Made by a program: the position numbers and the translations under genes. Source: Flavobacterium sp. (GTDB taxonomy: Bacteria; Bacteroidota; Bacteroidia; Flavobacteriales; Flavobacteriaceae). Taken from it: 64,000 bases of DNA. The stretch spans positions 1 through 64,000 of the forward strand of contig NZ_JAIXWA010000054.1 of the NCBI RefSeq assembly GCF_027482425.1, given 5' to 3'. Below are positions 5,918-35,235 of the stretch, in pieces. The notes beneath the pieces are model-generated. The model did not search any database. It had not been told where the DNA came from and saw nothing but the letters and a program-made list of their open reading frames with translations. The first letter of the stretch is position 1. The number at the start of each line of letters is the position of its first letter.

Positions 5918-7333
5918 ATGAGACATCTTAAAAAATTATGTGCTATTTTGATGCTTGCCGGATTAAGCGTTCAAGCTCAGGACAGTAACAATCAATGGGC
6001 CATTTCGTTTGGAGTAAACGGAATCGATGGTGCACGAGTAAGTGCGGCCTCAAAAATTGAAGATCAGTTTTCTCAATTTTTCGATGCAAAGAGATACTGG
6101 AGTATCATGCCAGCCGTTTCGTCTATTAATGTATCCAAATATGTAGGGAATAACTTTTCTTTTGGTGTTACCGGTTCTATCAATAGAGTAAACAAAATTG
6201 TAGGGGAGCGTTTTTATGATGCTACTACAAATATCAATGATTATCCTGTTGCTAATCCTGGCGATTTGATGTATTACAGCATTGACGGGGTTGTACGTTA
6301 CAGTTTCATGAGTTTAATCAAATCAAAAACAATTGAACCATCTGCACATATTGGTGGAGGATATACCTTTTTAGGTGATGCTTCTGCAGGTACTGTGAAT
6401 GGAGGTTTAGGTTTGACCTACTGGTTTGGAAAACAAATTGGTTTAACCTACACTGCTACTTACAAGCATTCCTTTGATGATTCAAGAGATCCTTCAGTAG
6501 ATGTTGCGCCTCACGTTCAACATTTTGCAGGGTTAATCTTCAAATTTGGAGCTAAAGATTCAGATAACGATGGTTTGTATGACAACGAAGATGCTTGTCC
6601 TACAGATGCAGGAACAGCTGAATTCAAAGGATGTCCCGATTCTGACGGAGATAAAATCATTGACAAGGAAGATGCTTGTATTGATACTCCTGGTTTAGCA
6701 GAATTTGGAGGTTGTCCTGATACTGATGGTGACGGAATCCAAGATAAAGAAGATGCTTGTCCAGATGCAGCAGGTGTAAAAGCTTTAGGCGGATGTCCCG
6801 ATGCTGACGGTGATGGTATCGCTGACAAAGATGACAAATGTAAAGATGTTAAAGGGCCTAAAGAAAATGGCGGTTGTCCATGGCCAGATAGAGATGGTGA
6901 TAACGTGTTAGACAAAGATGATCAGTGTCCTGATGTAAAAGGTACTGCTGCTAACAAAGGTTGTCCTGAAGTTACCGATGAGGTAATGAAAAAATTGAAT
7001 GATTACGGTAAAACGATTCTTTTCGACACTGGTAAAGCCTCTTTCCAAAAACAAACTTTCCCTGTATTGGAAGCTATGGCAGCCATCTTGAAAGAGTATC
7101 CATCTGCACAATTCTCTATCGAGGGTCACACCGATAGCGATGGTAAAGATACCTCTAACCAAAAATTATCAGAAGAGCGTGCTGCTGCTGTGAAAAACTA
7201 TTTAGTTTCTAACGGAATTGATGCTTCTCGTTTATCTTCTAAAGGATTTGGTGAGTCTATGCCAGTTGCTTCTAATAAAACAAAAGCAGGTAAATCTCAA
7301 AACCGTCGTGTAGAGGTGAAATTGGTAAAATAA
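5918..7333 (+). CDS. OmpA-family outer membrane protein with TSP3 repeats
   Basis: Starting at 5918 gives 471 residues with a clean signal peptide ([20 protein letters not shown], cut before QDS). Residues about 22-210 form a beta-barrel-like domain. A calcium-binding type-3 thrombospondin region follows at about 215-345, with repeated DSDGD/DTDGDG and CPD motifs. The last 100 residues are an OmpA peptidoglycan-binding domain ([19 protein letters not shown], and NRRVEV at the end). The protein should link the outer membrane to the cell wall, in the manner of OprF-like proteins of Bacteroidota. It has its own promoter and terminator and is probably abundant. Confidence 0.92.
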
Positions 7334-27478: not shown

Positions 27479-28513
27479 GTGCTTTGCTCAAAAAGTAAAG
27501 CTTTGAAGACCATTTCCTTTGTTGTATTGGACGATAATCCCCAACGGATGCAAAAAACAGCAGCGGTTGCGGTAGGTTTTTCGTTTATGACCTTCTTAGG
27601 TTCGGCTGCTTCGGCTGAAGAAGCTTTGGATTTAGTGCTGGAAGTTCGTCCCGACATGGTTTTTTTAGAAATAGACCCCGAAGAACCTGAAAATGGGTTG
27701 TCTTTGGCTTTGATTAGTGAATGGTACCGTTATCTTGTTCAAATACCCCAAGTTATTGTTACCACCAAAAATGACACCCTTTGTTTACAAGCTTTCAAGT
27801 ACGGTGTTTTTGATTATTTTATCCATCCAGTAACGACTTCCGAACTCCGTAAAACGCTGTTGCGCTTGGAGAAAACAATGGGTTATACACTTCACCAACC
27901 GACTGCCGTGCACGAAGTAGCGCCTGTGACAACCCCAGTTTCACAACCTCAAGCAGTTCCTTTTACTTCGCTAAATACAGAATTTCACACAGCAAAAGCG
28001 CCAGAGGAAACTCCAATTGGAACGGAAGTAGCTGTTGCAAATGAGATGCTTGAAGAGGCCAAGGTGATCCAAGAAGAGGTAGCTTCAGAAGCCGATACTT
28101 CCGAGGAAGAATCGGTTACAGTGGCCGAAAATCCAGCTACGATAATCGAAGTCAACACCCCCCAACCGTTGGTGATTTGCGTCAAATCTTACGGAGATTA
28201 TCGCTACATTGATGCCGATGAAATTTGTTATTTGCAAGCCGATAACAATTCGACGGATATCCATTTGAATACAGGTGAAATGATTACCGCGTTTAAAACC
28301 TTAAAGCACTTCGAAGGGGTATTGCAATCGCCTTTTATTCGCATTCACAACAGTTACATTGTCAATAGGAACTACATCGGTCGTATTCATACAGGAAATT
28401 CGGTGTGTCACTTAAAAAATTCGACGGTAAAACTACCTTTCTCTAAGTCCTATAAAGACAATATCGACCTCATAATCAATCAAATTGCTTCAGGGAACTA
28501 TTTGGAGATTTAA
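27479..28513 (+). CDS. LytTR-type response regulator with atypical receiver
   Basis: 344 residues from a GTG at 27479; a TTG at 27503 (MKTISFVVLDDNPQ) is an equally plausible start. There is an N-terminal receiver-like domain (about 12-135), a 90-residue Glu/Ala/Val-rich linker, and a C-terminal LytTR DNA-binding domain (about 234-340: YRYIDADEICYLQADNNSTDIHL, FIRIHNSYIVNRNYI). The acidic pair Asp18-Asp19 is kept. The usual VFLD phosphoacceptor reads VFLEID, so the acceptor is either replaced by Glu64 or shifted to Asp66. The invariant Lys is His116 (YFIHP). Control may therefore not depend on ordinary phosphorylation. First gene of the cluster, 40 nt before a second regulator. Confidence 0.88.
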   Translation: MLCSKSKALKTISFVVLDDNPQRMQKTAAVAVGFSFMTFLGSAASAEEALDLVLEVRPDMVFLEIDPEEPENGLSLALISEWYRYLVQIPQVIVTTKNDTLCLQAFKYGVFDYFIHPVTTSELRKTLLRLEKTMGYTLHQPTAVHEVAPVTTPVSQPQAVPFTSLNTEFHTAKAPEETPIGTEVAVANEMLEEAKVIQEEVASEADTSEEESVTVAENPATIIEVNTPQPLVICVKSYGDYRYIDADEICYLQADNNSTDIHLNTGEMITAFKTLKHFEGVLQSPFIRIHNSYIVNRNYIGRIHTGNSVCHLKNSTVKLPFSKSYKDNIDLIINQIASGNYLEI

Positions 28514-28553: not shown

Positions 28554-29216
28554 ATGACCATAAATGTATTGATCGTAGATGATCACAAATTAATTATTGA
28601 GGGGTACAAAACCATTTTTTCCAACAATCGCTTAGGGGCAGAAATCGATGTTTGTGAGGCCACCACCACCACGCAAGCCGTAGAAATTTTGAAAGCATCC
28701 GCTGTTGAAAAGACTTTCGATGTCGTTATTTTGGATTATACGCTTCCTGTTTGCGAAACCTATAAAATTTACAATGGTTTTGACTTAGTACACTACGTTC
28801 GAACGTATCAACCGCAGGCCAAATTAATGATTTTAACCTCTCACTCGGAGGCACTTATTCTGTATCGTGTGATCATGGAATCTCGGGCAGAAGCCATTAT
28901 GATTAAAAGTGATTTTTCCTCTATGGAATTGTTAGAAGCTTTTGAAAACGTGTATCAAGGCGGTACGTGTTACACCAAAACGGTAGCCGCTTTAAAACAG
29001 CAATTAAATGCCGATTACAAGGTGTTAGACGGTATTAACCGACAAATGATAGCTATGCTGGCACAAGGGTTTAAAACACGCTACATCATGGATCATTTGG
29101 GGCTATCCAAAAGCGCCATAGACAAACGAAAGGCCCTAATTCGGGAGTATTTTGCTATTGAAAAAGGCAATGATGAAACCATAGTGCAAATGGCACGCGA
29201 CCGAGGATATATTTGA
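28554..29216 (+). CDS. Response regulator, LuxR/NarL-like
   Basis: A 220-residue regulator. The receiver domain (about 3-140) has Asp9-Asp10, phosphoacceptor Asp61 (VVILDYTLP), Thr/Ser in ILTSHSE and Lys in MIKSD, so it looks competent. After the acceptor is a family-specific insertion (VCETYKIYNG) where ordinary receivers have MPGMNG. The C-terminal helix-turn-helix (about 153-210) ends in NDETIVQMARDRG. It is a paralogue of the regulator at 34567-35235, which shares the insertion and the DETxVxxAxDRG ending. The partner is probably one of the two kinases downstream. Confidence 0.9.
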   Translation: MTINVLIVDDHKLIIEGYKTIFSNNRLGAEIDVCEATTTTQAVEILKASAVEKTFDVVILDYTLPVCETYKIYNGFDLVHYVRTYQPQAKLMILTSHSEALILYRVIMESRAEAIMIKSDFSSMELLEAFENVYQGGTCYTKTVAALKQQLNADYKVLDGINRQMIAMLAQGFKTRYIMDHLGLSKSAIDKRKALIREYFAIEKGNDETIVQMARDRGYI

Positions 29217-29239
29217 ATTTTAACAAATTTTACACTTTT
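29216..29239 (+). repeat. 24-bp direct repeat, copy 1
   Basis: Starts at the 3' end of the upstream regulator gene; it differs from the copy at 29721-29744 at only two positions. It lies before a TATCTTTG element (29269-29276) and the orphan secreted gene. Candidate regulator-binding site. Confidence 0.5.
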
Positions 29240-29268
29240 TGCACACCTGAGATTGCAAAGTGCCTGGG

Positions 29269-29276
29269 TATCTTTG
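29269..29276 (+). promoter_or_regulatory. -7 element of the orphan secreted gene
   Basis: Exact TATCTTTG 55 nt upstream of the ATG at 29332; no TTG at a standard distance, but direct-repeat copy 1 occupies the region just upstream. Confidence 0.45.
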
Positions 29277-29331
29277 TCAAACGATTTGAGAATGAAAAGG
29301 ATGCTGCTGTTGCAATCAAATAATTTACGCC

Positions 29332-29721
29332 ATGATACAATATGTTCTAATTGGATTTTTTGCCTTACTATTTAATGTACTTCCCGTTCGATCACAATAC
29401 CCTTTAGATTCAGGGAAAATAGTAGTTCGGCTTGTTTTTATTACCGATACATTGCAGTTCAATTTTGATTCTAAAGCGATTTGGGAGCAAGCGTGTAACG
29501 ATTTGGATTTTTCCTATGCTGATTTTGCGTTGTCCCTTGCACCCAAAACAGGAATAGTTCCCTCGGTTACTGTAACGCTTTATGAATGGAGCCCATGGGT
29601 GGGCTTACCGTATAGTATGTTTGGATTTTGGAAACGCTACGGACCCGTTGCCTGTGAATTGGAATGTATAACACATGAAATCAATACGTTGTGGCACGTT
29701 CACAAAATTGCGTTGCGTTAA
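29332..29721 (+). CDS. Orphan secreted protein
   Basis: I do not recognise this 129-residue protein. It has a signal peptide (MIQYVLIGFFALLFNVLPVRS, cut before QYPLDS) and a mature part of about 108 residues with three cysteines (QACND, VACELEC) and several tryptophans (YEWSPWVG, FGFWKRYG, LWHVH). The length, signal and clean frame support a real gene. It lies inside the signalling cluster between a response regulator and a kinase, and identical-looking 24-bp repeats flank it on both sides, so it is a candidate extracellular component or target of the system; that is inference. Confidence 0.65.
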   Translation: MIQYVLIGFFALLFNVLPVRSQYPLDSGKIVVRLVFITDTLQFNFDSKAIWEQACNDLDFSYADFALSLAPKTGIVPSVTVTLYEWSPWVGLPYSMFGFWKRYGPVACELECITHEINTLWHVHKIALR

Positions 29722-29744
29722 ATTTTAACAAAATGTACACTTTT
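29721..29744 (+). repeat. 24-bp direct repeat, copy 2
   Basis: Matches 22 of 24 bases of 29216-29239. It begins at the last base of the orphan secreted gene's stop codon, mirroring copy 1 at the end of the preceding regulator gene. Confidence 0.5.
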
Positions 29745-29819
29745 AGTGTAGCAATAGTTAAAAATAGCCTTGTAATTTTACTGTGTACAAGCACTTAAAA
29801 TTGGGTTTCAGCCGATACT

Positions 29820-29951
29820 ATGATTAATCCCCTCACTCGGAATTCAATGTTGTCACTTTCGTTAATTCTGTTGTATACGCCCGGATTCTATGTTTTTTCT
29901 ACGCCTTTCCGAGTAGGGGATTTTTATTTATTTGTTAACTTAAGCGGATGA
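29820..29951 (+). CDS. Possible 43-residue hydrophobic peptide
   Basis: An ATG at 29820 opens a frame of 43 codons (begins MINPLTRNSMLSLSLILLYT, ends LFVNLSG) that closes 21 nt before the kinase ATG. The middle is hydrophobic enough to sit in a membrane. It runs straight through the long inverted repeat at 29827-29921, so it may be a chance frame over a structured leader. Reported because of its position in front of the kinase. Confidence 0.25.
   Translation: MINPLTRNSMLSLSLILLYTPGFYVFSTPFRVGDFYLFVNLSG
29827..29926 (+). terminator. Long-loop hairpin, terminator- or attenuator-like
   Basis: A 15-bp inverted repeat with one bulged base (arms 29827-29842 and 29907-29921) encloses 64 nt and is followed by TTTTT. 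It could end the orphan secreted gene's transcript or attenuate the kinase gene. Confidence 0.5.
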
Positions 29952-29972
29952 ATCCACTTTTTTTATAGGCTT

Positions 29973-31958
29973 ATGCGATACGTTGTTTTTATTAGTTTTT
30001 TACTTCTCTTCACCACTTGTAGTAACCCTAAAAAAACGGAGGGGCCAAGCCCTCAGGTCCTATTGAAGGTGGATAGCCTCATTGGTGTTAATCGAAGAAA
30101 CTCATTGGAGCACAGTTTAGTGCGAAGAAACTTGGATTTAGCCCTAAAGCTTATTGGTACAGCGGGAGATTCACTAACCAAAGAGTACAAGTATAAAATA
30201 CTCTGGAACAGCTTTTTTTGTTTGGAAAGTAAAAACCAAAAGTATATCGCTGATTTTGAGAAGTATTGTAAAATGTTTCCTAATGATTCGGTACTCATTG
30301 GAAGGTCGTATTTAGCAAAGGGAAGACATTTTGTGGATAAGGACCTATCAGATAAAGCTTTTGTTTATTTCAATTATGCAGATAAAGTTTTCTCTAAGAT
30401 AAAACATCTAGAGGGTATGTGTGAGACCTATTTGAATATTTCAGAGTTGCTAATGTATTTAAACGATTATTCAATTTCTGAACACTATTTAATGAAAGCG
30501 GAGAAGATATTAAAGAAATTAAAAAATGAAAGGCTATTAAAAAAACTCATTCTTATAAAGGTTGGTATTTTAAATATACATTATAAATATGGTGCATCAA
30601 AAACATTATTGGAAAATGCACTAAAATATGGAGTCGATGATATCGTTTTTGAGAAAAAACATCGAGCTGAAGTTAGAGAGGCTTTAATGTTATCGTATAG
30701 TTATAACAAAATGTACAAAGAAAGCCATCAATTAATGAATCAATTAATAAACGATGAATATAAGGGTAATTTAATGTTTGAATTAATAGTAGATATTGAA
30801 AACAAAATAAATCTTTATAAGGATTTCGATGCAATTTCAGAATATGAGTATTACCTAAAAAAATGCAAAGGATCTAATTATCTTCAATTTTTAATTTGTC
30901 GTGAGTATACCAATTATTTATTATCAATTAAATCATTTGATAAAGCTAAACAAATGGCGAATCGAGCATATCGGTTATGCAAAAATGGCTTATCTACTTT
31001 TGATTATTTAAGTTCTTTGGTGTTGTTAAGCAGAGCTGATCCTTCACAACGCCTTTTTGCAATAACAGAATACGACCGTGTAATAGATGAACTTTTGGTA
31101 AAAAAACGATACCAGCAAAATAATTTTTACAAAATACAGCTTGAAACCAATCAGTTGGCCTTAGCTAAAGTCAAAACCGAGCGCCAACGTAACCAATTGA
31201 TGTGGGGATTGGCAGGGGCCAGTTTGTTGTCGCTGATCATTTTCTTAATTTACCGTAATCGTTTGTTTCAATTACGCCATGAAATCAACAAAAAAAATCA
31301 AAAAAGCAATGCGCGTATTGAAGAGTTATTGGTCAAAAATCAAGAAATCGAGGCCCAAACCCGCAAGCATCTGCTACGGGGCATTGCGATGGAAATTCAC
31401 GACAACGTACTCAACCGCTTGGCCAGCACCCGATACCAACTTTTTAAATTGCATTTCAAGCAAGACAAACAAACGCTTCATGAAGCCATGGAAGGCATCG
31501 AGCATATTCAACAGGTGGAAAACGAATTACGTTTGTTAACCCATAACCTTACAAATGAAAGTAATTCGGCTACTATTTCTTTACTTTCTATGATTCAAGA
31601 GTTAATTGATATCCATCATGAGGTGTATGATCAAGAAGTGGAGTTTACCGTTTCGCAATGGGATTGGGAACAATTGCCCTACGATACTAAAGTGAATTGT
31701 TTGCGAATTGTACAAGAAGCCTTACTAAACATCACCAAGCATGCCAAAGCGACCCGGATATCAATTCAATTTATTCACGATACCCATCAGTTAATTTTTC
31801 GAATTTCCGACAACGGGAAAGGCATTGAAGAGGTAAAAACGACCCCTGGCATAGGCCTAAAAAACCTAGAAGAACGCGCTCAAATGATGGCTGCCAAAAT
31901 AGAAGTTTATTCGACCCCTGCCGAAGGAACGACCTTGCAAATCACACTTCCGATTTAG
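29973..31958 (+). CDS. TPR-lipoprotein sensor histidine kinase
   Basis: A 661-residue kinase. It begins with a lipoprotein-like signal (MRYVVFISFLLLFTTC), then a helical TPR-like sensor of about 380 residues, a membrane segment (LMWGLAGASLLSLIIFLIY near 409-427), a coiled coil, a HisKA_3 dimerisation domain with the phospho-His in MEIHDNVLNRL near 476, and a HATPase with NITKHAK, DNGKGIE and GIGLKNLEERA. Sensor DNA is far more AT-rich than kinase DNA (22% GC in 30541-30600, 53% in 31381-31440). It probably phosphorylates one of the flanking LuxR-like regulators. Confidence 0.9.
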   Translation: MRYVVFISFLLLFTTCSNPKKTEGPSPQVLLKVDSLIGVNRRNSLEHSLVRRNLDLALKLIGTAGDSLTKEYKYKILWNSFFCLESKNQKYIADFEKYCKMFPNDSVLIGRSYLAKGRHFVDKDLSDKAFVYFNYADKVFSKIKHLEGMCETYLNISELLMYLNDYSISEHYLMKAEKILKKLKNERLLKKLILIKVGILNIHYKYGASKTLLENALKYGVDDIVFEKKHRAEVREALMLSYSYNKMYKESHQLMNQLINDEYKGNLMFELIVDIENKINLYKDFDAISEYEYYLKKCKGSNYLQFLICREYTNYLLSIKSFDKAKQMANRAYRLCKNGLSTFDYLSSLVLLSRADPSQRLFAITEYDRVIDELLVKKRYQQNNFYKIQLETNQLALAKVKTERQRNQLMWGLAGASLLSLIIFLIYRNRLFQLRHEINKKNQKSNARIEELLVKNQEIEAQTRKHLLRGIAMEIHDNVLNRLASTRYQLFKLHFKQDKQTLHEAMEGIEHIQQVENELRLLTHNLTNESNSATISLLSMIQELIDIHHEVYDQEVEFTVSQWDWEQLPYDTKVNCLRIVQEALLNITKHAKATRISIQFIHDTHQLIFRISDNGKGIEEVKTTPGIGLKNLEERAQMMAAKIEVYSTPAEGTTLQITLPI

Positions 31959-32089
31959 TTTAAATAATTGAAAAACAGTGTTTTAGTTTAAAAAATAGAC
32001 TTTTCTCACCCTGTTTTTTAAAAACCATGCATTCACCCAAATTTGAGCCCCATTCACTCACAAATGACTATCATCCACTATATATACAT

Positions 32090-32111: not shown

Positions 32112-32198
32112 TATGCTCTAGTAGTTTTACATCGTGAAAGCCCCAAACGAATTGGCTTTACAGCTTATAAATTAAAAAAACTATTAAAGCATACGATC

Positions 32199-32432
32199 AT
32201 GAAAAAGTCAGCAATTATTTCAGCATTATTTATGATGATGTTGGTTTTAACTTCTTTCAGTACTCCAACTGAAATAGGTGGAGGCAAAAATTCCAAAGGT
32301 GGATTAGAGTTTGAAATAGGTGGAGGCAAAAATTCTAAAGGCGGTTTAGAAATTGGAGGAGGAAAAAACTCCAAAGGTGGTTTAGAATTTGAAATTGGAG
32401 GAGGGAAAAACTCCAAAGGTGGTTTAGAATAG
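32199..32432 (+). CDS. Secreted tandem-repeat peptide precursor
   Basis: A 77-residue protein, not recognised. A signal peptide (MKKSAIISALFMMMLVLTSF, cut near S-TPT) is followed by four tandem copies of EIGGGKNSKGGL(EF), 14, 12, 14 and 13 residues long. The units are identical in protein sequence, while the DNA has drifted: units 1 and 4 differ at six positions, all synonymous. That indicates selection on the peptide rather than recent duplication. There is no Cys and no double-Gly export leader. It has its own -7 element and terminator, and it sits between two membrane kinases. A peptide-signal precursor is my best hypothesis; a surface or matrix peptide is the alternative. Confidence 0.75.
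   Translation: MKKSAIISALFMMMLVLTSFSTPTEIGGGKNSKGGLEFEIGGGKNSKGGLEIGGGKNSKGGLEFEIGGGKNSKGGLE
32271..32429 (+). repeat. Four tandem coding repeats (42, 36, 42, 39 nt)
   Basis: Units start at 32271, 32313, 32349 and 32391, each with gaaat(a/t)gg(t/a)gg. Alternating long and short units suggest that a two-unit block was duplicated once. Confidence 0.85.
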
Positions 32433-32455
32433 TTGAATAAACATAATTTTATAAA

Positions 32456-32486
32456 AAAAACCGTTACCAATTGGTAGCGGTTTTTT
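32456..32486 (+). terminator. Intrinsic terminator of the repeat-peptide gene
   Basis: AACCGTTACC pairs with GGTAGCGGTT (one mismatch that is G-U in RNA) around AATT, then TTTTTT. The upstream in-frame TTG of the next kinase (32471) falls inside this hairpin. Confidence 0.8.
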
Positions 32487-32509: not shown

Positions 32510-34549
32510 TTGAAGCTAATACTTTGTATATTTATATCTTTCTTCATTATATCTTGTTCTAAGAATAAGAATACAGATAAGAATTTCCAAAGAAATGATA
32601 GTATAACATATTATTTAAGTTTGTCAAATTCAAATAGTTTAACTGGTAAAGGAAAGTTCAAATATTTATCTAAAGCATTTATAGTATTAAAAAATAGTTC
32701 AGAGAATTCGAAAATTGTAAGGAATCAATTAGCAGATATTACATTTGAGTTTTATAGACTAAAAAAACTTGAAGAATTTTATGACGGTTCAAGTATTTTG
32801 TTGTCAAAGGCAATACAAGGTAAAGACAGCTTAAATCTGGGTAAAGCATACAGATGTAAAGCAACTTATTTCAAAGATGTAAAACGATTAGATAGTTCAT
32901 TAATTTATTTTTTAAAAGCTGAAAAAGTTTACAACACTTTAAATGAACCTTTGGTTTTAGGAAATATATTATTCAATAAAGGAATTGTACAATTTGATGG
33001 TGGTGATTTTCTTGGAGCAGAATTGTCATTAACAAGTGCTTATGAAATTTTCAAGGATTCCGACAAGAAAGATAAACTATACGGTGTTTTAAATCAACTG
33101 GGATTAACTTTTAATGAGTTAAATGAATACGATAAAGCGATTTTTTATCAAAAGAAGGCTTTAGAATTAGTGCAAAAGTATAATCTAGTTACCTCTTTCA
33201 ATGAGGATATAGTTTCGTACAATAATTTAGGTTACTTATATAATAAGATTGGGAAATATGAAGATGCAATCTTTTATTTGGAGCTAGGTTTAAAAAATAA
33301 AAATATTATAACTACTGATCCAGATTTGTATTCATTATTAATTGATAATCTTGCATACTCTAGGTTAAAATCATCCAGCTTCAAAGGGTTGCCAGGCTTG
33401 TTTTTTGATTCTTTAAAAATTAGATTAAAATTAAAAAATTCTACAGGAATAGTTACGAGTTATATTAATTTGTCACAATTTTATAAATTAAAAAGGGACT
33501 ATTTAAAGTCAATTTATTATAGTGAAAAAGCTATTGAAGAAGCAAGAAAATCAAAGATTCCAATAAATCTTATTCAAGCTTTAAAGCAAGCATCCGTTGT
33601 TAATGAAAAGTTAGCATATAAATACTCCAAAGAGTTTATTAAAATTAGTGATAGTCTACAATTAGTTGAACGTAATTCTCGGGATCGATTTACTAAAATT
33701 CAATTAGAGACTAATGAAATAATCGAACAAAAAGACTCCCTCGAGAAGAAAAACCGAAATATCCTCAACTATTTTATTGGAACTATTGCCGTAGGCGGGT
33801 TGTTGTTTTTTATGCGCGCACAACGGGCGAAAAGTCGGGAATTACTGCTGCGTCAAGCGCAACAACGCGCTAATGAAGATATTTACCGCTTGATTATTTC
33901 GCAGCAAAACAAACTTGAAGAAGGACGTGTGCTCGAGAAAAACCGTATCGCCAAAGAACTCCACGACGGCGTGCTCGGGCGTCTCTTTGGATTGCGCCTC
34001 AACCTCGACGGACTCAATCACCGAAATGATGAAGACTCCATTCATGAACGAATTCGTTGCTTGGAGGAACTCAAAAATATTGAGCAAGACCTGCGGGAAA
34101 TCTCCCATGAGCTGAGTCGTGAAAAATATGTACTCGTCAATAACTTTGTTGCCATTGTCAACAACCTACTCGACGAACAAGCCAAAGTCAATCCAGCGAA
34201 ACTCAATGCCGTAATCGGAGAAAACATCGATTGGGACCAATTGAGCAATACCACCAAAATCAACCTTTACCGTATTTTACAAGAGAGTTTACAAAACATC
34301 AACAAATACGCTAATGCCAAAACCATTAAGGTTGAATTTCGTAAAGATAAAAAAGGTAATTTAGTGCTCAATATTACTGATGATGGCGATGGATTTGAAG
34401 TCGACAAAAAAAGTAAAGGCATCGGACTGAAAAATATTGTGACACGAACCCATGAAAGCAACGGTATTATTGAAATTAAATCGGCGCCTGGAAAAGGAAC
34501 CCGTATCAGTATTACCGTACCCCTTGAACATAAAAGTATTAAAAGTTAA
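32510..34549 (+). CDS. TPR-lipoprotein sensor histidine kinase
   Basis: 679 residues from a TTG at 32510, chosen because it gives a lipoprotein signal directly (MKLILCIFISFFIISC); the frame extends back to 32471, but that part lies in a terminator. TPR repeats fill about 60-390 (LGLTFNELNEYDKAIFYQKKAL, LGYLYNKIGKYEDAIFYLE). Next come a membrane segment near 420, a coiled coil, the HisKA_3 motif IAKELHDGVLGRL near 483, and a HATPase (NINKYANA, DDGDGFE, GIGLKNI). Sensor DNA is strikingly AT-rich (20% GC in 33421-33480 against 62% in 33961-34020). A TATTTTTG at 32486-32493 can drive it. The regulator follows 17 nt later. Confidence 0.9.
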   Translation: MKLILCIFISFFIISCSKNKNTDKNFQRNDSITYYLSLSNSNSLTGKGKFKYLSKAFIVLKNSSENSKIVRNQLADITFEFYRLKKLEEFYDGSSILLSKAIQGKDSLNLGKAYRCKATYFKDVKRLDSSLIYFLKAEKVYNTLNEPLVLGNILFNKGIVQFDGGDFLGAELSLTSAYEIFKDSDKKDKLYGVLNQLGLTFNELNEYDKAIFYQKKALELVQKYNLVTSFNEDIVSYNNLGYLYNKIGKYEDAIFYLELGLKNKNIITTDPDLYSLLIDNLAYSRLKSSSFKGLPGLFFDSLKIRLKLKNSTGIVTSYINLSQFYKLKRDYLKSIYYSEKAIEEARKSKIPINLIQALKQASVVNEKLAYKYSKEFIKISDSLQLVERNSRDRFTKIQLETNEIIEQKDSLEKKNRNILNYFIGTIAVGGLLFFMRAQRAKSRELLLRQAQQRANEDIYRLIISQQNKLEEGRVLEKNRIAKELHDGVLGRLFGLRLNLDGLNHRNDEDSIHERIRCLEELKNIEQDLREISHELSREKYVLVNNFVAIVNNLLDEQAKVNPAKLNAVIGENIDWDQLSNTTKINLYRILQESLQNINKYANAKTIKVEFRKDKKGNLVLNITDDGDGFEVDKKSKGIGLKNIVTRTHESNGIIEIKSAPGKGTRISITVPLEHKSIKS

Positions 34550-34566: not shown

Positions 34567-35235
34567 ATGTCCCAAAAAGTCAATATTCTTATCGTAGACG
34601 ATCACCCGTTTATCATTCAAGGGTATAAAAACGTGATCAATTTATTTCCCGATAAATCAATAACATTCCAGTTTTTTGAAGCTACGGACTGCCGTTCGGG
34701 TTATGACATCATTATGCAAGCCAACGAACCCTATGATATTGCGTTTCTCGATGTAAGTATGCCCGAATATGAAGAGAAAAACATCCACACTGGAGAAGAT
34801 TTGGCCAAACTATTAAATGCCGAAATGCCCCAGTGCAAAGTGGCTTTACTTACCATGCACTCGGAATCCCTCAAGGTGCAATCCATTATCGAAGAGATTA
34901 ATCCCGTGGGCTTGGTCATCAAAAACGACCTTACCTTTGACAACATGATTTTGGCCTTGACCACCATTTTGAAAGGGGAAACCTATTACAGCGATTCGGT
35001 GATTAAATTTCTAAACAACCAACAAAAAGAAAAAGTATATGTCGATGTCATTGACCGTCAAATTCTGCATTATCTCAGTAAAGGTATCAACTACGACGAC
35101 ATCCCTTTATATATATCCATCTCTTCCAGTTCGGTGAAAACCCGCAAAGAAAACATGAAAGAATTGCTCAATATAGTGGGAAGTGACGATGAAACCTTAG
35201 TGGCCCTCGCCAAAGATCGCGGCATGTTACTCTAG
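34567..35235 (+). CDS. Response regulator, LuxR/NarL-like
   Basis: A 222-residue regulator with Asp11-Asp12, phosphoacceptor Asp62 (IAFLDVSMP), LLTMHSE and VIKND, so the receiver looks active. It has the same post-acceptor insertion (EYEEKNIHTG) and C-terminal DDETLVALAKDRG signature as the regulator at 28554-29216. The helix-turn-helix region (about 160-210) is diverged. It lies 17 nt behind the second kinase, its most likely partner, and overlaps the convergent thiL by four bases. Confidence 0.9.
   Translation: MSQKVNILIVDDHPFIIQGYKNVINLFPDKSITFQFFEATDCRSGYDIIMQANEPYDIAFLDVSMPEYEEKNIHTGEDLAKLLNAEMPQCKVALLTMHSESLKVQSIIEEINPVGLVIKNDLTFDNMILALTTILKGETYYSDSVIKFLNNQQKEKVYVDVIDRQILHYLSKGINYDDIPLYISISSSSVKTRKENMKELLNIVGSDDETLVALAKDRGMLL

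Follow-up and report, generated by a model that had tools for sequence, protein, structure and literature searches.

A candidate peptide-pheromone precursor and its TPR histidine kinase in Flavobacterium: repeat units that vary between species together with the sensor

A short reading frame in the window (the whole analyzed stretch of Flavobacterium sp. DNA, 64,000 nucleotides) encodes a small protein in which one peptide occurs four times, and a histidine kinase is encoded on either side of it. What is the product of this gene, and which of its neighbors might respond to it? With a probability of roughly three in four, the ORF encodes the precursor of a secreted peptide pheromone and belongs to a peptide-pheromone/TPR-histidine-kinase system with species-specific pherotypes, of which cleavage, binding, and response would be the putative steps.

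The repeat precursor and its family

The ORF at 32199..32432 (+ strand) translates to MKKSAIISALFMMMLVLTSFSTPT + EIGGGKNSKGGLEF / EIGGGKNSKGGL / EIGGGKNSKGGLEF / EIGGGKNSKGGLE, i.e., a hydrophobic, Sec-type signal peptide (residues 1 to ~21), the residues TPT, and four units. Translation places unit 1 (EIGGGKNSKGGLE, followed by F) at 32271..32309, unit 2 (EIGGGKNSKGGLE) at 32313..32351, unit 3 (EIGGGKNSKGGLE, followed by F) at 32349..32387, and unit 4 (EIGGGKNSKGGLE), which forms the C-terminus of the protein, at 32391..32429, all on the + strand. Units 2 and 3 have one Glu in common, the last E codon of the former being the first codon of the latter, and the spacing of the units alternates between 12 and 14. 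The tandem array reaches a TRF score of up to 234. Any two units differ by one to six codons, every difference being synonymous. The translation and the codon comparison thus agree with the earlier note, made from the sequence alone, which had described a signal peptide followed by four identical units and counted six synonymous and zero amino-acid changes between units 1 and 4. The window belongs to contig C62 of a genome of 2.59 Mb. The closest named relative found is F. fontis DSM 25660 (L002): its precursor differs by one residue (FQ for FE), and its downstream kinase (HK2, see below) is 97% identical to that of the window over residues 19-679. No precursor among those tested (the one in the window and seven others) exceeded a curated cut-off in Pfam or NCBIfam, PHROG returned weak matches only, no phage record matched the precursor, and none of six sequence strings was found in the literature searched.

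A profile of the precursor family (A2), built from 11 homologs, matches 242 of 398 Flavobacterium genomes. The neighborhood was analyzed in 100 loci out of these 242 positive genomes, taken from among the best-scoring places and in most cases distant from a contig end. The leader MKK..LTIGLFSLVMVLTSFT is common to the family, whereas the unit is not: EIGGGKNSKGGLE in the window corresponds to SIGGRGEVGTGSF in F. stagni (L004) and to IIGGQSAGGNMKLD, NIDGGSRQIKTDN, or ETGGKQDPTPTMLTY in other loci. A unit was assigned in 91 sequences, those of 90 loci and that of the window; with register allowed for, they contain 88 distinct units, which form 77 groups at a unit distance >0.1.

Within genes, the unit is highly constrained. 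Codon comparisons in 80 sequences (those with a period of 20 or less and a repeat zone) gave 2538 identical, 708 synonymous, and 119 non-synonymous pairs, a ratio of 0.17 against 2.58 expected without selection, in a zone bounded by identical 6-mers, which favors low ratios. As the row of the window is misframed in this count owing to its 12/14 spacing, the separate codon comparison given above was used for it. A count that began at the first repeat and ran to the C-terminus (79 loci, the window not among them) gave 2544 identical, 726 synonymous, and 191 non-synonymous pairs (ratio 0.26); over the whole mature region, including the lead part, the ratio is 1.23 because the lead is not repeated. 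The claim that the repeated peptide itself is under selection is thereby upheld, within-gene ratios of 0.17-0.26 standing against a neutral 2.58. In most members, as judged from these codon counts, selection keeps one peptide sequence per gene, and this sequence changes between species.

In several precursors (e.g., L064, L077, L083, and L121) the spacers differ while the core stays constant, and the last copy often coincides with the protein end, which suggests the boundaries of the core. Internal repeats are absent from 13 of the 100 members: four carry a single C-terminal unit (L108-L110 and L118), one has a unit followed by a tail (L139), and eight have no clear unit (L117, L124, L127, L132, L140, and L142-L144). 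Two other accounts of the repeats were discarded. A spurious ORF or a repeat kept at the DNA level is ruled out by the mostly synonymous within-gene differences. Paralogs of the family within one genome were also rejected, the extra A2 matches in 12 multi-match genomes being mostly overlapping repeats of one gene; the remainder, five rows in G006 and G086, are weak (E >= 6.9e-4), and four of the five lie within frames of 416-738 aa.

The neighboring kinases and the promoter region

HK2, a lipoprotein TPR histidine kinase, is encoded directly downstream of the precursor (32510..34549, + strand, with a probable TTG start). Its 679-aa model contains a lipobox, a TPR sensor (about 32591-33710), a long transmembrane helix, and HisKA_3/HATPase kinase domains (about 33842-34546), and the gene is followed by a response regulator (34567..35235, + strand; Pfam Response_reg 1.3e-11). 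An HK2-family ORF lies downstream of the precursor on the same strand in 100/100 Flavobacterium loci, although that of L126 is only distantly related and the HK2 frame of L138 is broken. A homolog of the response regulator is found downstream in 99 of the loci, the exception being L084, whose stretch stops at the contig end; a second kinase is located between HK2 and the response regulator in six. The locus lies between glyQS and thiL in 86/100 fetched stretches, some of which end too early to tell, and compact examples, such as L071, show glyQS, LytTR, precursor, HK2, response regulator, and thiL closely spaced. A scan for small secreted ORFs was positive upstream of 97/100 HK2 genes; the same scan was positive upstream of 45/719 other ORFs of >=200 aa, or 23/719 with overlaps with larger ORFs removed. 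Homologs scattered without kinases, which the earlier note had named as evidence against its proposal, were not seen in the 100 loci examined. With the genes of the window as probes, no transporter, protease, modification enzyme, or immunity gene was recognized in the locus.

An intrinsic terminator (32455..32486, + strand; a 14-pair stem, then T's) separates the precursor from HK2, as had been noted at first sight. Terminator-like hairpins with a T run occupy this place in 99/100 loci, compared with 8/100 stretches shuffled once. TTG is the apparent HK2 start in 93/100 loci (start codons were chosen by a lipobox rule), typically ~100 nt past the precursor stop; such a start behind a terminator suggests low expression of the receptor.

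The second kinase of the window, HK1, belongs to an insert between the LytTR gene and the precursor (28554..31958, + strand). The insert comprises three genes, all of which occur also in L062 and L068: a response regulator (28554-29216, + strand), a small secreted protein of 129 aa without a Pfam or NCBIfam match (29332-29721, + strand), and HK1 (29973-31958, + strand), which matches the HK2 profile at 1.1e-73. The precursor had been described as flanked by two TPR-lipoprotein kinases on the same strand. Both flanking proteins are indeed kinases of the HATPase/HisKA_3 type, HisKA_3 in HK1 remaining below the Pfam cut-off, but Pfam TPRs were found in HK2 and not in HK1. Any second kinase upstream of the precursor is present in only 14/100 loci (L061, L062, L068, L096, L105, L114, L119, L122, L125, L130, L135, L136, L138, and L141), which rules out HK1 as a general partner; the proposal that a neighboring kinase reads the peptide therefore holds for the downstream kinase and not for the upstream one. 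Sensing of the peptide by HK1 is still conceivable in the lineage of the window. Elsewhere in the window, an 81-nt tandem repeat (2.5 copies, 6628-6831) has a consensus that reads Cys/Asp-rich and presumably resembles the calcium-binding repeats of outer-membrane proteins.

The candidate activator of the precursor promoter is a LytTR-domain response regulator (27479..28513, + strand; Pfam LytTR 3.3e-16, Response_reg 1.5e-5 and below cut-off). A LytTR domain is encoded on the same strand no more than 6 kb 5' of the precursor in 97/100 loci, and in 84 of these 97 its end is less than 700 nt away. Three CATTCAC-like direct repeats in 21-bp steps (32030..32083, starting at 32030, 32051, and 32072, with no strand assigned), read by eye and two of them also located by the motif comparison across the genus, might constitute the LytTR site. 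The genus consensus of the upstream regions is TCATTCACTATCAAAC(N5)CATTCTACCATA. Of 101 upstream regions, 95 had both repeat boxes scored, and 81 of these 95 show them at a distance of 20 bp; a regex pair of boxes is found in 79/101 regions against a mean of 0.75 in shuffles. A candidate -7 promoter element, TAGTTTTAC (32122..32130, + strand), recurs in the genus: it is exact in 65/101 upstream regions, has one mismatch or fewer in 92/101, and is located 50-51 bp past the second repeat box in 75/91 scored. In a stringent whole-genome scan the promoter repeat occurred once in 9/12 genomes, in each case just 5' of the precursor and nowhere else at that stringency, and was absent in three.

The promoter-like element of the earlier note thus survives as the recurring TAGTTTTAC box, but not as a sigma-70-like promoter, the single scan match (31968-31996) being within chance. 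Likewise, an upstream inverted repeat exists (imperfect, 17 nt, 32112-32128 / 32177-32193, similar by eye in L062 and L068), but the element that recurs across the genus is the direct repeat with copies ~20-21 bp apart. The inverted repeat joins the region of the -7 box to the sequence just 5' of the precursor ATG, and may form a leader hairpin. Direct repeats spaced two helical turns apart are characteristic of LytTR proteins, which makes autoregulation via the neighboring LytTR gene the natural expectation; judging from the arrangement of these sites, the precursor would be autoregulated through the LytTR protein.

Covariation of unit and sensor, cassette-like exchange, and predicted sensor structure

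HK2 was divided by alignment into sensor and kinase, and the distances of each part were compared with those of the units. Loci with an ambiguous unit (L112, L117, L124, L127, L132, L140, L142, L143, and L144) or a broken HK2 frame (L138) were left out; in 13 others, the core of the unit was assigned manually. Averaged over pairs, sensors differ by 0.55 and kinases by 0.36. Across 91 sequences, unit distance correlates with sensor distance at r 0.69 and with kinase distance at 0.50; the corresponding partial correlations are 0.56 and -0.08 (0/999 permutations). Since the species are related, 32 disjoint closest pairs by kinase were also taken, for which the Spearman correlation is 0.85 for unit and sensor, 0.22 for unit and kinase, and 0.84 for the partial (0/9999 permutations). 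The eleven of these pairs with similar units (distance <0.2) differ on average by 0.18 in the sensor and 0.09 in the kinase, while the eleven with different units (>=0.4) differ by 0.50 and 0.12, respectively. Exceptions are L109/L058 (unit 0.25, sensor 0.50), L108/L063 (unit 0.21, sensor 0.46), and L139/L090 (unit 0.08, sensor 0.34). With comF, thiL, the response regulator, and the kinase as controls (all pairs among the 71 loci that contain every control gene), the partial for unit and sensor drops to 0.31, and the unrelated protein comF keeps a partial of 0.20 in the same analysis, so that shared ancestry explains part of the all-pairs signal. Repeats that vary freely between strains had been named beforehand as a sign against a signal. 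The units do vary between species, but they do so with the HK2 sensor and not with the kinase domain, which argues for pherotypes.

Profiles along the genes (HK2 identity for 17 pairs and DNA identity for 7 pairs, all chosen by hand) locate the divergence. In pairs with close kinases whose units clearly differ, identity is 10-60% in most HK2 bins between residues 30 and ~380, while the kinase bins are mostly at 80-100% and glyQS, the response regulator, thiL, and lepA at 79-98%. In L130 versus L119, for example, glyQS (98%), the response regulator (97%), thiL (95%), and the kinase bins (91-100%) are nearly the same, and the sensor bins are at 12-44% up to residue ~380 and at 76% in the last bin. 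In the DNA of this pair, identity amounts to 47-62% between 0 and +1600 and to 86-93% across kinase and regulator; on the upstream side it is 89% at first and 66-75% farther out, at the second kinase, so that the precursor-sensor block is the lowest, yet not the sole divergent part. The window and F. stagni (L062) likewise show kinase bins of 84-96% and sensor bins of 10-57%, whereas pairs whose units are identical or almost so (L076/L088 and L048/L049) show no dip or a shallow dip only.

The reverse pattern is seen in one pair, L097/L090, which has the same unit, with the sensor 7% and the kinase 25% different. At the DNA level, a block that extends from about +200 to +1400, counted from the precursor ATG, and so over nearly the whole sensor, has 93-97% identity. 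The bin with the precursor has 83% (the copy number is three versus four), the 1000 nt upstream have 63-77%, the stretch between +1400 and +3200 has 68-78%, and the next 800 nt have 83-87%. Such a block is the footprint that a joint transfer of the sensor with some or all of the precursor would be expected to leave, and the exchange in this pair is cassette-like, as after cassette transfer.

AlphaFold2 prediction on 81 HK2 sequences gave a mean pLDDT of 85, mostly 90-97 in the solenoid. The HK2 model consists of a TPR solenoid from residue 28 to ~390 and a long helix that passes through the membrane segment to the kinase. The lipobox Cys at position 16 is invariant in 81/81 HK2 rows, and since the N-terminal lipobox and the TPR domain precede the transmembrane helix, the modeled sensor should face the periplasm. 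VIA-align of the sensor ranked LGN first (Z 29.7), followed by RapI (27.1), NprR (26.0), and Rap with CSF (24.1); as LGN is unrelated and has the same fold, the likeness to Rap and NprR is weak evidence of kinship. TPR solenoids are widely alike, so the fold is suited to peptide binding and does not in itself establish that function. Comparison of the sensor sequence with the PDB returned generic TPR proteins only (kinesin light chain, APC subunit, LGN, and designed TPRs). Positions changed between pherotypes are spread along the sensor over both TPR helices and no single face, with no concentration on helix A, the presumed concave face (A 0.43, B 0.48).

Interpretation, known systems, and relatives in other genera

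Conserved linkage, selection on the units, unit-sensor covariation, the cassette-like exchange in one pair, and the predicted TPR fold, all of them computed, are consistent with the following scheme. Proteases outside the cytoplasm would cut the precursor into peptides of ~11-14 residues with the core IGGGKNSKGGLE, and the released peptides may reach the TPR superhelix of HK2 in the same or a neighboring cell. HK2 might then pass phosphate to the adjacent response regulator and/or to the LytTR protein, and the latter, on binding the direct repeats, would raise transcription of the precursor in a quorum-sensing-like positive feedback. Each species would possess its own peptide/sensor pair (pherotype), and the precursor-plus-sensor block could be exchanged as a cassette. 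The original proposal of a multi-copy signal read by a neighboring kinase is favored by synteny, by selection on the units, and by their covariation with the sensor, but it loses the part that made partners of both kinases, HK2 alone being conserved.

The predicted orientation of the sensor weighs against this scheme, as a periplasmic sensor requires a peptide of 1-1.6 kDa to cross the outer membrane for signaling between cells, and no transporter or protease was recognized in the locus with the window genes as probes. Further points against it are the spread of sensor changes over both TPR helices, the drop of the unit-sensor partial with four control proteins, the exceptions to the covariation, the 13 members lacking internal repeats, the HK2 loci that have no precursor, and the likeness of TPR superhelices to many unrelated proteins. 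Alternatively, the precursor may be a sacrificial protease substrate, with HK2 reading the peptides of its own cell as a gauge of proteolysis or envelope state. The lipobox Cys of all 81 rows and the TPR domain before the transmembrane helix, which point to a periplasm-facing sensor, agree with such a private role, as does the absence of a recognized exporter from the locus when probed with the window genes; private sensing, however, leaves species-specific peptide/sensor pairs and cassette transfer unexplained, such diversity being a trait of pherotypes, and it is unlikely. Should the diversity instead reflect an arms race, the gene could encode a multi-core antimicrobial peptide, with the kinase controlling its production or self-protection. 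Small secreted, Gly-rich, diversified peptides adjoin two-component systems in peptide-regulated bacteriocin loci, and the present locus recalls them in each of these traits. Yet no transporter, modification enzyme, or immunity gene was recognized with the probes from the window, compact loci (e.g., L071) leave little space for further genes, database matches are below cut-off (Pfam/NCBIfam) or weak (PHROG), and the fixed chromosomal site between glyQS and thiL (86/100 loci) is unlike that of most bacteriocin loci; an antimicrobial role is accordingly quite improbable. Least probable of all is an uncut repeat protein serving HK2 as an accessory ligand or multivalent scaffold, similar to periplasmic co-sensors, with no free peptides. 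The covariation data would fit it equally, and the whole repeat protein always adjoins HK2 in the examined loci; the single-unit members (L108-L110 and L118) and the mostly one-copy precursors of other genera, however, indicate that multivalency is not required, and the spacers between identical cores differ in several precursors.

The pheromone reading finds its nearest known counterparts in RRNPPA and ComCDE/Agr systems. With ComCDE and AgrBDCA of Gram-positive bacteria, the locus has in common a variable peptide and a variable sensor, a conserved kinase, a LytTR regulator, and, putatively, promoter feedback; precursor, histidine kinase, and response regulator lie in one locus, and the peptide changes in step with the sensor while the kinase domain is conserved, as in two-component pheromone systems. 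It differs from them by a TPR solenoid sensor instead of a polytopic membrane domain, by a Sec-like signal peptide and tandem units, and by the lack of a recognized dedicated exporter or peptidase in the locus. In contrast to ComC-type GG leaders, the leader is hydrophobic and Sec-like, and no C39 ABC transporter was recognized with the window genes as probes. Yeast alpha-factor is likewise made from one secreted precursor with several identical copies and spacers more variable than the core; a conserved dibasic spacer was not seen here, and no sequence relation is claimed between such different organisms.

The likeness to RRNPP(A) systems of Firmicutes (Rap, NprR, PlcR, AimR) consists in a small secreted propeptide gene adjoining the gene of a TPR receptor (100/100 loci, and 29/29 in other genera) and in the TPR superhelix. 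Some RRNPPA systems even carry several pheromones on one propeptide, the "chatterers" (PMC9765709). RRNPPA receptors are cytoplasmic, whereas in these Bacteroidota a lipobox and TPRs are fused to a transmembrane histidine kinase; the available text of one account delimits RRNPP(A) receptors as intracellular proteins of 250-500 aa (PMC10075063), which HK2 is not, and because its receptor is a membrane kinase the present system falls outside the RRNPPA definition. According to the same text, peptide quorum sensing is known mainly from Firmicutes (PMC10075063). According to passages of a genome paper, quorum sensing had not been proposed in a systematic way for the genus Flavobacterium; FaRpfC-FaYpdB is put forward there for Flavobacterium akiainvivens (PMC6801697). 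This system has the genus and a LytTR-type regulator in common with the one described here; it differs as an Rpf-type system (found with Xanthomonas Rpf queries) with a CHASE3 hybrid kinase, and a peptide precursor is not mentioned in those passages (PMC6801697). No description of the present system was found among the matches listed in the literature searched (titles and abstract starts; bioRxiv and most subscription papers lay outside its scope).

It seems fairly probable, though less so than the pheromone reading itself, that Flavobacteriaceae possess a peptide quorum sensing of a kind undescribed for Bacteroidota in the literature searched, with a secreted precursor (often of three to six copies in Flavobacterium), a periplasmic TPR-solenoid kinase, dozens of pherotypes, and horizontal exchange of cassettes. 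If so, a large group of environmental bacteria would have a testable communication code with dozens of readable pherotypes. Every unit could be synthesized from its sequence, and specificity for self versus non-self could be assayed directly. The system would unite the designs of TPR peptide receptors and of membrane kinases, each already known, and would offer a rich natural data set on peptide-receptor specificity.

The link to other genera rests on a search anchored on HK2 and on inspection, rather than on precursor homology. In 199 genomes of the family, the A2 search matched 10, two of them Flavobacterium, the eight matches in other genera being weak (E >= 5.8e-4). The HK2 profile (E <= 1e-100) matches 71/120 Flavobacteriaceae genomes, including that of the window. 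A small secreted or lipoprotein ORF lies just upstream in 29/29 inspected best HK2 loci of other genera. These precursors are mostly one-copy, many with a single C-terminal sequence that contains GG; several copies occur in three (L183, TDGDDTPTDDRQS; L190, ATDDDDDYVDVDGRS; L195, TGGGVDERDTEATTF). A LytTR domain is located within 1.5 kb in 14 of the 29 loci, and the spacing regex of the promoter, which matches 3/14 LytTR-bearing and 0/14 other loci (L176 omitted), is no more than suggestive. At E <= 1e-70, the profile matches at least 8/60 genomes of the order (seven from the family, and G052 from a different one) and at least 9/99 of the phylum (all in the family), the genome of the window counted in both; these are lower bounds because scoring was limited to some of the first-look candidates. 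Among the 13 loci L199-L211, a small secreted ORF precedes the kinase gene in ten and is missing from L207 and L211; L208 is HK1 of the window, and the 43-aa frame upstream of it is of doubtful meaning.

Within Flavobacterium, 12 of 18 genomes without an A2 match have an HK2 relative, and nine of the 14 HK2 loci in such genomes are accompanied by another small secreted ORF, while five are not. In three loci (L156, L158, and L159, from Flavobacterium G032, G012, and G023, respectively) two small secreted precursors with similar C-termini, e.g., PLVIVIKKD and PIIIIKKD in L159, lie upstream of one HK2 relative; possibly, one pheromone is released from two leaders. Five HK2-family kinases are arranged in tandem at G479:C1:3337578-3347757, the matches being separated by no more than a few to roughly a dozen bases.
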